NCBI GenBank assembly: GCA_013140605.1
Contig: JABFSL010000124.1
Span: forward strand, 1 to 33,701
Source of the DNA: Anaerolineales bacterium
Lineage (GTDB): Bacteria; Chloroflexota; Anaerolineae; Anaerolineales; Villigracilaceae
Direction of reading: 5' to 3'
Length of the DNA stretch: 33,701 nt
The first letter of the stretch is position 1; every line of letters begins with the position of its first letter. Below, one piece after another: positions 1,633-19,317 of the stretch. Below the pieces are notes generated by a model. That model searched no databases. It was given only the letters and a program-made list of their open reading frames with translations, and was not told the DNA's origin. The position numbers and the translations under genes were made by a program.

Positions 1633-3108
1633 ATGCAACCCAAACTCACACTGCTAAGCGATGAGATTATTGCCCGTATTTTGTCAGAAGCGTATGAGCT
1701 TTTGATAAAACCTGGCATCAAAGTCCAGAATGCTGGGGCGCGGGAATTGCTGGCCGCAGCGGGCGCGACCATTGACTCTAAAACTGACGTTGCGCAGATT
1801 CCCGCCTCTCTCGTTCACAAGGCGCTGGAAACTGTGCCGCGCGATTTTTATCTATACGATTACGATGGCAATCCCAGCGTGCATTACGGCGGTGACAACG
1901 TCCACTTTGACCCGGGCTCATCGGGCATCACCATGCTCAACCCTGAAACGCTTGAGCACGACACCACCGAAACCGAACATCTGATTCGCCTGCTGAAAGT
2001 TGCGGAACAACTTCCGCAATATGATGCGCAATCCACAGCGGTCATTTGCCATGATGTACCCAAAGAGATTCAAGACTCGTATCGTTTGTATCTCGTTTTG
2101 CTCCATTCAAAAAAGCCGATCGTCACAGGCGCGTTCACGAATAAGACCGTGCAAGAGATGATCGACATGCTTTCAGTCTTTGCGGGTTCAGCACAAGCCG
2201 CGAGCGAAAAACCACGCGCCATCTTTGACGTGTGCCCTGCTCCGCCGCTGATTTGGAGCAACTTCGGCGCTGGAAATTTAATTGCGCTCGCGCGCGCAGG
2301 TGTCCCTGCGGAAATTGTTTCCGTGCCGCTTTCAGGAGCGGCCGCCCCTGTGACCATGCTTGGGACGGTCACCCAGCACACGGCGGAGTGTTTTGCGGGT
2401 ATCGTCATTCATCAGCTCGCCAAGGCTGGCTCACCCATCGTTTGGGGCGGCGCGGCGGCGATCTTCGACATGCGCAAAGGCGCAACTCCGATGGGCGCAG
2501 TCGAAACTGCCATGCTTGATTGTTCGTACGCACAGGTCGCAAAAACGCTCAACATGCCCACGCACACTTATCTCGGCGCGACCGATTCAAAACTTGTAGA
2601 CGCGCAAGCTGGGCTCGAAAGCGGAATCTCGGCTATGGTCGGCGCGTTGAGCGGCATCAACATGATCTCCGGCTCGGGCATGTTGGACTTCCTCGCCTGT
2701 CACAGTGCGGAAAAACTCGTACTCGATGCAGAAGGAATTGCAATGGCAAAACGCATGATCGGCGGCGTGAAGCTGCATACCGACACACTCGCCACTGGTT
2801 TCTACGATGACAAGATCAATTTCAAAGGCGGCGACTTTCTTAAACAGAAGGCCACCATGCAGCTCTTCCGCGAGGAACAACATTTGCCAAGTTCTGTCAT
2901 TGACCGCGACTCGACACGCGCATGGAAAGCGGCTGGTTCATTGGATGCCTTTGGCAGATGCAAAATCCGCGTGACTGAATTGCTCGCATCATACAAGCGA
3001 CCTGAAATTGATCCTGCCCAGGAACGCAGACTCTACGCCTTTATGCTTGATCTCACTAAAAAGACCGGCGTCGACATTTTGCCCTTGCTTGAACATTATC
3101 AACCCTAA
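1633..3108 (+). CDS. MttB-family (COG5598) corrinoid-dependent methyltransferase, copy 1, non-pyrrolysine
   Basis: This 491-residue protein belongs to the trimethylamine methyltransferase superfamily, whose members move a methyl group from a quaternary or tertiary amine to a corrinoid protein. Family wording is visible across the whole length, including the Ala/Gly-rich barrel segments around residues 230-250 (PVTMLGTVTQHTAE) and 270-300 (WGGAAAIFDM, PMGAVETAMLD). The frame has no internal TAG, so it is one of the non-pyrrolysine members, some of which are known to act on glycine betaine, proline betaine, carnitine or butyrobetaine. The substrate cannot be read from the sequence. GAGGTG precedes the ATG. 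The corrinoid partner lies directly upstream, and a second diverged family member lies at 5083. Confidence 0.92.
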   Translation: MQPKLTLLSDEIIARILSEAYELLIKPGIKVQNAGARELLAAAGATIDSKTDVAQIPASLVHKALETVPRDFYLYDYDGNPSVHYGGDNVHFDPGSSGITMLNPETLEHDTTETEHLIRLLKVAEQLPQYDAQSTAVICHDVPKEIQDSYRLYLVLLHSKKPIVTGAFTNKTVQEMIDMLSVFAGSAQAASEKPRAIFDVCPAPPLIWSNFGAGNLIALARAGVPAEIVSVPLSGAAAPVTMLGTVTQHTAECFAGIVIHQLAKAGSPIVWGGAAAIFDMRKGATPMGAVETAMLDCSYAQVAKTLNMPTHTYLGATDSKLVDAQAGLESGISAMVGALSGINMISGSGMLDFLACHSAEKLVLDAEGIAMAKRMIGGVKLHTDTLATGFYDDKINFKGGDFLKQKATMQLFREEQHLPSSVIDRDSTRAWKAAGSLDAFGRCKIRVTELLASYKRPEIDPAQERRLYAFMLDLTKKTGVDILPLLEHYQP

Positions 3109-3114
3109 AATATC

Positions 3115-4983
3115 ATGCTTGATCTCACCCAACTTTTGCGCGTCCCGCATATAGACAATGATTTAAAGTTCGCCATCTCCCCCGACGGGCAGAGATTGGT
3201 TTTTGCATGGAATAAAACGGGGAGATGGGAATTGTGGCAAACGTCATTGCGAGGGCGACAGCCCGAAGCAATCTCCAACTTAACAAGAGATTGCTCACCT
3301 GCACTGGCGTGCGGCGCAAGTGTCGTCGGGGAAAGCACCCTCCTCGCAATGACATTGGACGAAGGTGCAAAATTCTCTCCGAAATTTTCTCCCGATGGCA
3401 CTCAACTTGCATACGCTTTGGATATTGACGGAAGTGAGTCGTATCACATTGTTGTTCACGATCTAAGCACCAATATCTCGACTGACCTCACGCCTCAAAT
3501 CGCATACGCGCATCAGCCAAATTTCTCATGGTCACCCGATGGCAAAGTGCTGGCTGTGCTTTCAGACAAGCACGGACAATTTGCCCTGCACCTGCTCCAT
3601 GTTGACGGTACTCCAGGCCGAATGATAAAGAATGTGTTCCGTCCGTGTTGGGACGTAGTCTGGTCACCCGATGGGCTGTGGATAGCAATCGAAGCAGAGT
3701 CAACTGCCAGTGATAGAAGTATTTATGTGATGCCGATCAATCGGCCGCGCAAAACGGGGAAAGGCAAAGCGACTAAAGTCGCTACTACGAAAATAGAATT
3801 GAACGCGCAGAATCCTGCATGGTCGCCTGATTCAAAATTCCTGGCGTTCTCTGGCGAAAACGGTGAATGGCATGACATTGGATTATTCAATGTGGAGACT
3901 CAGGAAATCACATGGGTCAACGAATCCGCTGGTGATGACAGTCAGCCCGCATGGTCGCGAAGCGGAAATATTATCGGGTGGGTACATTCTGAGGGAGCAC
4001 GGACCAGCTTTCAGTTTAAAGAAAGAGGCGCTGTCGTTAAGGAGAAAAAAGTTGAGGATGGGGTGCATTACTTTCCGCAGTTCATAGATGACAGCGTTGT
4101 AATTCTGTACGAAGATCCAAAGCATCCGTGCGATTTGTGGAAAATAAATCTTGAAGATGATTCGATGGAGCAATTAACAAATTCATTGCCCGAAGAAATA
4201 CGGAATGCGGAATTCATTCCGCCCGAAGAAGTATTTTACACAATCAAAGATGGGACGCAAATTCCCGCATTATTGTATCGCGCAAAAAACAGCACGCGGG
4301 CGGTGATCAATATCCACGGCGGACCCAACTGGTTGTTCCAGTTTTTATGGTATCCGATCATGAGCTATATGGCCTCGCGCGGCTGGACAGTGCTTGCGCC
4401 AAATTACCGCGGCTCGACGGGCTATGGCAAAAAATGGCAAAACTCCAGCCGCTACGACATGGGCGGCGTGGACACCGACGATTGCGCGGCGGGCGTGAAA
4501 TATTTAATTGAAAATGGGCTGGCAGAAAAAGATAAAATCGGCATCACTGGCAGAAGTCATGGCGGCTATCTGACGATGACTTGCATGACGATGTATCCAG
4601 AATTATTTGCCGTGGGTTCGGCGGTTGTGCCATTCTTGAATTGGTTGAAGTCACATAAAAATTCGCGCGAAGATTTGCAGCATTGGAATATCGAAAACAT
4701 GGGCGACCCCGAAGACAACCGCGAGTTATGGATTGCGCGTTCGCCGTATTTCTTTTTGGACAAAGTCAGCGCACCTGTGCAAATGATCTGCGGCGGAAAT
4801 GATCCGCGCTGTCCCGCATCTGACTCAATTGATGCGCGTGATAAACTTGTCGAACTTGGAAAAGAAGTTGAGTTGTTGTTGTATGAAGATGAAGGTCATG
4901 CGTTTTTGGATGTTGAAAATGTGATCGATTCAGAAGTGAAGCGTGTGGAGTTTCTGGCGAACGTGCTGGAGAAAACTATTTAA
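3115..4983 (+). CDS. S9 family (prolyl oligopeptidase type) serine peptidase
   Basis: This 622-residue peptidase has an N-terminal WD40-like beta-propeller (about 15-340, repeated SPDG/SPDSK blades) and a C-terminal alpha/beta hydrolase (about 370-620). The expected triad is visible: Ser481 in GRSHGG, Asp563 in GGNDPRC and His595 in DEGHAF. No signal peptide is seen, so it is probably cytoplasmic and acts on short peptides or acylated amino acids. It starts 6 bp after the methyltransferase stop without a clear Shine-Dalgarno, consistent with coupled translation. Two palindromic repeats are embedded in frame in the propeller (3243-3353 and 3767-3788), inflating surface loops. A peptidase inside a methyltransferase operon suggests it frees the methylated substrate from a conjugate; this is inference. 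Confidence 0.93.
   Translation: MLDLTQLLRVPHIDNDLKFAISPDGQRLVFAWNKTGRWELWQTSLRGRQPEAISNLTRDCSPALACGASVVGESTLLAMTLDEGAKFSPKFSPDGTQLAYALDIDGSESYHIVVHDLSTNISTDLTPQIAYAHQPNFSWSPDGKVLAVLSDKHGQFALHLLHVDGTPGRMIKNVFRPCWDVVWSPDGLWIAIEAESTASDRSIYVMPINRPRKTGKGKATKVATTKIELNAQNPAWSPDSKFLAFSGENGEWHDIGLFNVETQEITWVNESAGDDSQPAWSRSGNIIGWVHSEGARTSFQFKERGAVVKEKKVEDGVHYFPQFIDDSVVILYEDPKHPCDLWKINLEDDSMEQLTNSLPEEIRNAEFIPPEEVFYTIKDGTQIPALLYRAKNSTRAVINIHGGPNWLFQFLWYPIMSYMASRGWTVLAPNYRGSTGYGKKWQNSSRYDMGGVDTDDCAAGVKYLIENGLAEKDKIGITGRSHGGYLTMTCMTMYPELFAVGSAVVPFLNWLKSHKNSREDLQHWNIENMGDPEDNRELWIARSPYFFLDKVSAPVQMICGGNDPRCPASDSIDARDKLVELGKEVELLLYEDEGHAFLDVENVIDSEVKRVEFLANVLEKTI
3243..3353. repeat. In-frame 111-bp palindromic element inside the S9 peptidase gene
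   Basis: The ends are a perfect 12-bp inverted repeat, gtcattgcgagg (3243-3254) and cctcgcaatgac (3342-3353). An inner pair, gcaatctc and gagattgc, is nested within. The length is exactly 37 codons and the frame stays open. The ATTGCGAGG...GAAGCAATCTC wording resembles a dispersed palindrome common in bacterial intergenic regions. The encoded segment (Cys/Ala/Ser-rich) does not look like beta-propeller sequence. The true element borders are uncertain. Confidence 0.6.
3767..3788. repeat. In-frame 22-bp copy of the GTAGTAGCGACTT repeat inside the S9 peptidase gene
   Basis: Read on the minus strand this is the GTAGTAGCGACTT palindrome. It matches the intergenic copy at 28771-28792 at 21 of 22 bases. 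Its core gcgact-aa-agtcgc (3769-3782) is self-complementary. It encodes a Lys/Thr-rich loop (KATKVATTK) between propeller blades. The shared sequence between a coding and a non-coding site is what marks it as a mobile or dispersed repeat. Confidence 0.6.
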
Positions 4984-5053
4984 CCACGAAGGGCACGAAG
5001 GCGCACTAAGGAAAACCTTTCAAACCTTTGTGACTCTTTGTTTACTTTGTGGT
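4982..5053. repeat. Imperfect inverted repeat, CACGAAGG/CACAAAGG family, copy 1
   Basis: The segment begins with aaccacgaagggcacgaag at the peptidase stop codon and ends with the near-complementary tttgtttactttgtggt. It fills most of the gap before the second MttB-family gene. Related elements lie at 7761-7838 and 19219-19317. It can fold into a long hairpin in the operon mRNA, so a role in RNA stability is possible, but no T-run supports a plain terminator. Confidence 0.6.
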
Positions 5054-5082: not shown

Positions 5083-6501
5083 ATGGAGCCATTGAAATTT
5101 CTTAGCGACGAAGATGTAAAAGCAATGCACGAAGCCACACTTCATATCATGAGCGAAGTGGGGCTTATTTGGACTCATAAATCCAGCCTCGATATTTTGC
5201 TCGGTGCAGGCTGTACGATAAAAAACAACCGCGTTTGCATGCCGCGAGATTTGGTTGAAGACTGCATTGCCAAAGCCAACAAACGCCCCGTTATTCGCGG
5301 GCGCAATGGACAAGTCAATGAGTTGGGCGGCGGCAATTTATATTTTCACAACCTCGGCGGCGCGCGCGATGTCTTCGATGCAAAAACAGGTACTCGCCGA
5401 ATCGCAACCGATCAGGATGTGATCAACGCGACTCGCGTGCTGGACGCGCTCCCGAACTGTCACACGGTCACACCGTTCTTCACACCGCAGGATGTGCCCG
5501 GCGAATTAATGTCGCTGTTCATGTATCGTCATTCAATTCCGCACACGGTCAAGCCTTTGCAGGGACCTGGCATTCAATTTGCCGAGGAAGTAAAGTATGC
5601 GGTGGAAATGGCGCACGTAATCGGCACACCCGCTAATGAACTCACGCTCTCCCTCTCCCCCGTCAGCCCGTTAACCATCCACGATCCTGCCGCGGCCGCA
5701 ATTGTTGAAATGGCGAAGGCGGGCGTGATCTGCGCCAACCTACCCGCTCCCACTGGCGGAGCAACTTCACCGATGACGATCACAGGCAGTCTTGTTCAGC
5801 AAAGCGCAGAAACTTTGGCTTTACTTGTTCTGGCGCAAATCGTTAACCCTGGGTGTGGTATTGTGTATTGCGGACGACTTGGGATGTTGGAACCGCGCAC
5901 TGGATTAATTTGGGGCGGAGTGGAACTTGGCATGTCATCCGCCGCCACGGTTCAGCTCGGACATTATTATGGATTCAGCGTTAATGTGTATGGGTTTTCA
6001 ACGAATGCACATACCCTTGACGCCCAAAACGCCTTCGAGCGCGGACTGAACGCCTCCATCCCAGCCTTGGCTGGCGCGGATGAACTCTCAGGTATCGGCG
6101 AAATGGAAGCAGGCGTGATGGGTTCGTATGCTCAAATGGTTTTGGATAATGAACTTGTTGGCAGTGTCATGCGTTTGCGAAAGGGTCTCTCGGCTGATTC
6201 AGCGCACCTTGCAGTGGACATCATCGAAAATGTCATGAATGGAACACGCAACTTTTTAGGCCAACGGCATACGTTGAATCACTTGAAAGCTGGCGAAATC
6301 GCATTGACCAAACTTGCAGAACGCAACTCATGGGAAACATGGGAAGATAAACTGGACCGCAAGCAAATGGCAGACTATGCCGCGAACGAAGCTGAAAGAA
6401 TTCTGCGCGAACACCAAGTCCCGCCGCTGGAGCCGCAACAGGAGAAGGAACTTGATAGAATTATGGCGGCGGCTGAAAAAGAAATGGTGAGGAAGAAGTA
6501 G
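5083..6501 (+). CDS. MttB-family (COG5598) corrinoid-dependent methyltransferase, copy 2, non-pyrrolysine
   Basis: This 472-residue member of the trimethylamine methyltransferase superfamily aligns by eye with the protein at 1633 in overall layout. Both have a helical N-terminus, Gly/Ala-rich barrel strands (PTGGATSPMTITGSLVQQSAE around 225-245) and a C-terminal helical tail rich in Glu/Lys. The two are clearly diverged, so they are more likely to handle different methylated substrates, or sequential demethylations, than to be recent duplicates. There is no in-frame TAG, so no pyrrolysine. GGAG precedes the ATG by about 7 bp. Only one corrinoid protein is visible for the two enzymes, so they probably share it. 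The final residues are strongly charged. Confidence 0.92.
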   Translation: MEPLKFLSDEDVKAMHEATLHIMSEVGLIWTHKSSLDILLGAGCTIKNNRVCMPRDLVEDCIAKANKRPVIRGRNGQVNELGGGNLYFHNLGGARDVFDAKTGTRRIATDQDVINATRVLDALPNCHTVTPFFTPQDVPGELMSLFMYRHSIPHTVKPLQGPGIQFAEEVKYAVEMAHVIGTPANELTLSLSPVSPLTIHDPAAAAIVEMAKAGVICANLPAPTGGATSPMTITGSLVQQSAETLALLVLAQIVNPGCGIVYCGRLGMLEPRTGLIWGGVELGMSSAATVQLGHYYGFSVNVYGFSTNAHTLDAQNAFERGLNASIPALAGADELSGIGEMEAGVMGSYAQMVLDNELVGSVMRLRKGLSADSAHLAVDIIENVMNGTRNFLGQRHTLNHLKAGEIALTKLAERNSWETWEDKLDRKQMADYAANEAERILREHQVPPLEPQQEKELDRIMAAAEKEMVRKK

Positions 6502-6513
6502 GCAGGTAAACAC

Positions 6514-6563
6514 GTATACAAGTAAACAGGTGTGGTTACGTATGTACGTGTTTACTTGTATAC
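6514..6563. repeat. Perfect 15-bp inverted repeat between copy-2 methyltransferase and amidohydrolase
   Basis: gtatacaagtaaaca (6514-6528) and tgtttacttgtatac (6549-6563) are exact complements around a 20-bp loop. A looser relative of the TTTACTTG wording occurs at about 21567-21600. It could be an operator-like site or an RNA hairpin; there is no T-run for a standard terminator. Confidence 0.6.
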
Positions 6564-7760: not shown

Positions 7761-7838
7761 AAACACAAAGGACACGAAGTACACAAAGGTGAAAAAAGCC
7801 CTAGGTCTTCCTTCGTGACCTTTGAGTCCTTTGTGTTT
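7761..7838. repeat. Inverted repeat, ACACAAAGGACACGAAG family, copy 2
   Basis: Perfect 11-bp ends, aaacacaaagg (7761-7771) and cctttgtgttt (7828-7838), enclose further partly paired CACGAAG/TTCGTG blocks. The left arm (7761-7789) matches the reverse complement of 19288-19316 at 28 of 29 bases, so this is a true dispersed repeat and not a chance hairpin. It fills the gap before the last gene of the operon. Confidence 0.75.
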
Positions 7839-8747: not shown

Positions 8748-8779
8748 AAAGACCTCGGAGTTAAACTCCGAGGTCTTTT
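8748..8779 (+). terminator. Rho-independent terminator of the methyltransferase operon
   Basis: aaagacctcggag (8748-8760) and ctccgaggtcttt (8766-8778) form a perfect 13-bp stem with a TTAAA loop, ending in a T-run. It lies 17 bp after the stop of the methyl-THF methyltransferase and separates the operon from the cassette array. Confidence 0.9.
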
Positions 8780-19218: not shown

Positions 19219-19317
19219 TAAACACGAAGGACACAAAGGGATCTAAGGTTTGTTGACTTGCTTACAAGAATACCCTTTTTAGATTTTCCTTTGTGTACAT
19301 CGTGTCCTTTGTGTTTA
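19219..19317. repeat. Inverted repeat, ACACAAAGGACACGAAG family, copy 3
   Basis: aacacgaaggacacaaagg (19221-19239) faces cctttgtgta...tcctttgtgttt (19288-19316). The right arm, reverse-complemented, matches 7761-7789 at 28 of 29 bases. It occupies the whole space between the DinB and aminotransferase genes, overlapping the DinB stop codon (19315-19317), so it forms the 3' end of the DinB transcript and may stabilise or terminate it. Confidence 0.75.

Follow-up and report, generated by a model that had tools for sequence, protein, structure and literature searches.

The S9 family peptidase gene considered here raises the question of how a palindromic DNA repeat comes to be carried, in frame, inside the gene of an enzyme, and whether it arrived there once or many times. 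The gene lies in a 33,701-nucleotide stretch of Anaerolineales DNA (the window). We favor, with a probability of roughly three in four (0.77), an account in which a mobile palindrome became a loop of the peptidase in frame: landing is wide, selection keeps in-frame copies, and permissive loops are recolonised.

The palindromic element and its peptidase host

A preliminary description, made from the sequence, had placed a nested inverted repeat with perfect 12-bp ends at 3243-3353, and the repeat is real and lies there (Table 1). The outer arms, 3240-3254 and 3342-3356, are 93% complementary over 15 nt and perfect over 12 bp at 3243-3254/3342-3353; the inner arms (3267-3275/3287-3295) are perfect over 9 nt. 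For the 111-bp strand, taken as the whole head-to-head pair, the folding energy is -49.1 kcal/mol; 200 dinucleotide shuffles average -32.89 (sd 3.57; z -4.54), and none of them folds as well. As the same description held, the frame stays open over 37 codons: the ORF at 3115-4983 reads through the palindrome and encodes 622 aa. Rfam at gathering thresholds gave a tRNA as its sole match in the window.

Table 1. Features of the peptidase locus, in window coordinates
Feature	Position	Strand	Basis or remark
S9 family peptidase gene (622 aa), host of the insert	3115..4983	+	ORF, domain matches; best fold match 5l8s
111-bp palindromic repeat (family A, CGTC-tagged REP-like head-to-head pair)	3243..3353	+	in frame, 37 codons
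Left outer arm GTCATTGCGAGG	3243..3254	+	arm search
Right outer arm CCTCGCAATGAC	3342..3353	+	arm search
Inner arm, left AGCAATCTC	3267..3275	+	arm search
Inner arm, right GAGATTGCT	3287..3295	+	arm search
27-bp internal module CACCTGCACTGGCGTGCGGCGCAAGTG, 9 codons	3296..3322	+	present in other genomic copies too
Second length-variable peptidase stretch, ~residues 213-229	3750..3801	+	other inserts in some orthologs

The internal module is commoner in a 26-bp form among other genomic copies and is missing from several orthologous inserts, such as those of L012, L059, and L061. A frame filter on module length was considered; the coding copy has 27 bp and six of the seven other copies found have 26 bp, too few to claim one. 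A coding-friendly design was also rejected, the element's open frames (140 of 312) being not special beside 127.8 (sd 7.1, largest 148) in 100 shuffles.

The peptidase looks otherwise intact, as first described, with an open 622-aa frame, a Peptidase_S9 match (E 3.2e-49), and PD40 matches for the propeller. By profile and fold alike, the nearest solved structure is 5l8s, a cold-adapted acylaminoacyl peptidase (TM 0.82, query length). S481 (within a GRSHGG motif), D563, and H595, which we take to be the catalytic triad, are invariant across a 41-row alignment. The AlphaFold2 model has a mean pLDDT of 84.0, with residues 55-83 below 50, and the insert is predicted to be a floppy loop after strand 39-44, unstructured within an otherwise confident fold.

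The second variable stretch adjoins low-confidence residues 212-216 of the model. A suspected second palindrome at 3769-3789 (GCGACTAAAGTCGC) was rejected as a dispersed repeat: its match in the host genome (G000) is itself (n = 1), and G021 and G026 have none. At this second loop, about 120 aa past the main one, three orthologs from another clade (L090, L091, and L102) carry a CHSERSEES...AQGD-like translation, and inserts of this kind are presumably another common palindromic repeat. The peptidase gene is flanked by MttB-family methyltransferase genes (1633-3108 and 5083-6501), and a repeat-bearing gene elsewhere in the host genome (L132) encodes a RACo-type corrinoid activator.

A dispersed family in the host genome and its genus

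Copies elsewhere in the genome, to which the preliminary description had looked for support, are abundant. The ten-base end TCATTGCGAG occurs 119 times in the host genome (60 + 59) against 4 (2 + 2) for the reversed pattern, and BLAST of the element returned at least 45 matches at E<=0.001, with self and split pieces counted (best 40 of 155 candidates scored). Matches to the element were found in 41 of 61 genomes, comprising the whole genus (37/37, host included) and 4 of 24 in the rest of the order. Peptidase carriers with names are mostly Chloroflexi or Anaerolineales MAGs, and one is Candidatus Villigracilaceae.

Reading the window locus and 68 other stretches took in 100 of the 119 ends and gave 74 entries. 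A partner end lies within 160 bp (<=2 mismatches) in 54 of the 74, and head-to-head pairs predominate. Flanks were scored at 53 paired entries, or 52 places (L137 was entered twice). In all 53, G stands before the terminal TC; the base preceding it is C in 35 and T in 18, and the window copy has the tag CGTC. No target duplication was found at these entries beyond an ambiguous AT-like dinucleotide. As to the target site duplication of a MITE, the flanks show just a palindromic AT/AT-like signal, in 11 of 53 against 6.7 in shuffles (p 0.013 before correction for the many lengths tried). Nor was a link to Y1 transposases seen, with an exact TCATTGCGAG within ~1.5 kb at 0 of 7 Y1_Tnp loci.

At least 60 open codons on both sides were found for 8 of the 74 entries, a set that does not include the window peptidase, where only 45 codons are open upstream. 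Several candidate coding insertions were rejected. L131, L141 right, and L142 are bare ten-base matches within ordinary-looking genes; L148 has an unpaired end and a doubtful ORF; L151 lies ahead of a plausible N-terminus; and L136 sits before what we take to be the start of GlmS. Clear copies within genes occupy 3 of the 52 paired places: the window peptidase, a proline racemase (L111, PF05544), and the RACo-type activator (PF14574).

A second repeat, of ACCACGAAGGNCACGAAG type, has three matches in the window (4983-5000, 7762-7779, and 19221-19238; <=2 mismatches) against 0.00 expected, the first overlapping the final base of the peptidase gene. Of the window's further inverted repeats, that at 6498-6563 is imperfect, with arms of 31 nt, and that at 8748-8778 is a perfect hairpin of 15 bp.

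Changing occupants of the same loop

Among 57 distinct Anaerolineales orthologs, the same peptidase loop holds family A, B, D, or E, a short motif C, an AT-rich type F, or nothing recognised. Family A loops number 21, from 17 identified by pattern (L024 doubtful) and five interrupted or eroded loops identified by eye (L011, L014, L056, L081, and L096). Type B (CCCCCTCTCCC...GGGAGAGGGG) was recognised by eye in seven; D occurs in three, E in one, C with F in two, and a tandem-like F in 12. The B, D, and E inserts recur elsewhere in their respective genomes, and motif C has a few short matches elsewhere. Type F is a loose, low-complexity pattern that may be native sequence. In line with the insertion first described, the insert residues are absent from the most distant orthologs read (L038, L089, L101, and L104).

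Orthologs of the same genus often have a related palindrome at this position and others have unrelated repeats, so the site looks recurrently occupied, not hit once; the insert was probably not gained once. Alternating occupancy is common to all three clear coding cases of the host genome. By eye, the 15 loci of the proline racemase site comprise A in seven, B in four, a short 9-aa form in two, and two unread, and of the 30 RACo loci 10 carry A in intact or eroded form, four carry some other sequence, 10 are empty (12-13 aa), and six are unread. Dissimilar dispersed repeats at the same codons in dozens of related genomes speak for repeated occupation, and different repeats at one spot in relatives suggest a reusable landing place for palindromic DNA in proteins. 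With dozens of genomes in the genus, it becomes feasible to measure how often such loop insertions occur and where they come from.

In our picture, the 111-bp segment is a mobile palindrome that inserted, in frame, into an exposed connection of the first propeller blade and would be translated as a floppy loop of a presumably active peptidase. Such palindromes may land widely, with selection removing most that fall in genes (three clear cases at 52 places). Copies in frame in a few permissive loops would persist, erode, and give way to new arrivals, and these loops would thus act as recurrent landing places. The repeat may be moved in trans by a REP-type transposase or be copied by template switching.

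Under targeted or palindrome-driven replacement, a palindrome already in place would draw in others, for example through hairpin cleavage and repair or template switching, and the landing place would be a hot spot of mutation in addition to being tolerated. We hold this possible, at clearly less than even odds. It would explain why palindromes that are unrelated occupy identical codons, and why A contains a nested module at a matching internal point in two genes (L014 and L189). It would also fit the peptidase site, where 43 aa separate 'WEL' from 'GAKF' in the window copy, as opposed to 16-18 aa in the short forms and those of the outgroup. Since the element takes up 37 codons, about 10-12 native residues seem to have been replaced. 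The clean insertion of about 37 residues that the preliminary description anticipated thus fails against shorter peptidase orthologs, but RACo does show a clean insertion of this repeat family. There, set against 10 empty orthologs, 40 aa versus 12 corresponds to 84 bp, an 82-bp unit plus AT. This clean insertion weighs against targeted replacement, as does the lack of a long duplication or common target in the 53 paired entries. A tentative extension would have certain protein loops of Anaerolineales serve as long-lived docking sites, swapping unrelated palindromes by palindrome-for-palindrome replacement, beyond simple tolerance, and so permitting fast modular change of surface loops of conserved enzymes.

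A single ancient insertion, inherited and diverged so that present sequences are its decayed descendants, is an unlikely source of the pattern; the excerpted text of PMC3767692 raises a comparable possibility for RPE-4, RPE-6, and RPE-7. In its favor, type A is widespread in the genus and keeps one reading frame at its left end (SLR), and one insert is clearly common to some close relatives (L012/L059/L061; L033/L087). We placed the loop types on a quick LG+G4 tree of the 57 distinct orthologs, built with the loop removed. The first pattern labels, which left out the five eroded or interrupted A loops, require 23 changes (minimum 7; shuffled mean 32.8); the labels are clustered, and inheritance is therefore part of the story. 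In favor of repeated occupation, the conservative labels A, B, D, E, and 'other' require no fewer than 19 changes (minimum 4), and A set against all others requires 14; the four identified families by themselves require only 5 (minimum 3), which favors a single insertion. Most changes set A against loops without a proven repeat, and many of these could thus reflect loss or erosion instead of replacement.

Against a single insertion, B, D, and E are dispersed repeats of their own genomes and therefore not decayed A, and the proline racemase site holds both A and B. Sister species also differ in their inserts at starred branches (L084/L099, L015/L077, L021/L068, L034/L081, L014/L022, and L090/L091) and at branches with values of 88 and 90 (L017/L023 and L035/L036). 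In these pairs the flanks are 79-90% identical (300 nt downstream), while the inserts are 50-73% identical against 56-73% when shuffled. In seven of eight pairs of the same type, conservation is stronger in the insert than at third codon positions, with, for example, 81-89% against 67-70% in L012/L059/L061; L011/L056 is the only such pair with the faster insert (63% against 85%). This conservation speaks against pure neutrality and allows either constraint or homogenisation. Overall, the data favor repeated occupation of the peptidase site, with some shared inheritance.

Retention of the hairpin for an mRNA function, such as an element near codon 43 that acts on translation or stability, we regard as very improbable. 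Fold z values below -2 are found in 16 of 17 pattern-A inserts, two of three D, the single E, and two of five B, as such a function would favor, but none of the 12 type F orthologs has such a hairpin (mean z -0.51), and in the proline racemase and RACo genes the repeat lies >100 codons from the start. A chance palindrome or assembly artefact, conceivable for a host genome that is a MAG in 132 contigs, is refuted by the excess of dispersed copies over the reversed-pattern control and by the in-frame inserts that occupy this site in many genomes assembled separately, including one in a single contig (G021, L025).

Relation to known palindromic repeats

Literature searches by end sequence, coding palindromes, hot spots, and Anaerolineae yielded no recognised description of this element among the matches listed. 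A 2005 report by Ogata on protein-coding palindromes of Wolbachia is said, by its title, to concern in-frame palindromic repeats in genes.

The analogy to Rickettsia palindromic elements (RPEs) drawn in the preliminary description is right in kind, but the end tag best fits CGTC-tagged REPs. RPEs are reviewed by Delihas 2007. RPE-1 to RPE-7 are likewise palindromes of 100-150 bp that lie in frame within conserved proteins, and RPE-4, RPE-6, and RPE-7 have in common an ATGAC motif that, compared by eye, also stands at the end of the present element (PMC3767692, in excerpt). RPEs reside in a reduced intracellular genome, whereas the present host has a 3.9-Mb Chloroflexota genome, and the families that take turns at one site here have no similarity in sequence. 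In its excerpted text, the R. japonica paper (PMC3767692) does describe RPEs of different groups at a single locus of orthologs; of the two possibilities that it gives, a hot spot and common origin, it leans to the latter. Coding palindromes of Nematomorpha mitochondria (PMC6649704, in part) are also inverted repeats compatible with coding; there both arms supply conserved residues, whereas here the insert forms a variable loop.

CGTC-tagged REPs were defined by Di Nocera et al. 2013 (PMC3733652), whose available text identifies the intragenic repeats of R. conorii as RPE-4 and RPE-6. Its Table 1 gives a stem of 8-9 bp and a loop of 4-5 nt, and the portions available name five phyla, Chloroflexi not among them, and, like the survey of Y1_Tnp loci here, find no linked transposase. 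As here, these repeats have CGTC ends (TGTC too in our case), form head-to-head pairs, and are dispersed and mostly intergenic, with some copies in frame within genes of free-living species (PMC3733652, same portions). Internal modules, in contrast, are a feature of the Anaerolineales elements, and same-site occurrence, found once in those portions of PMC3733652 (Xanthomonas recB), extends here to many orthologs. By its end tag, the element best fits a CGTC-REP-like repeat, and the occupation of one site by several families is best seen as a new twist on coding palindromes.
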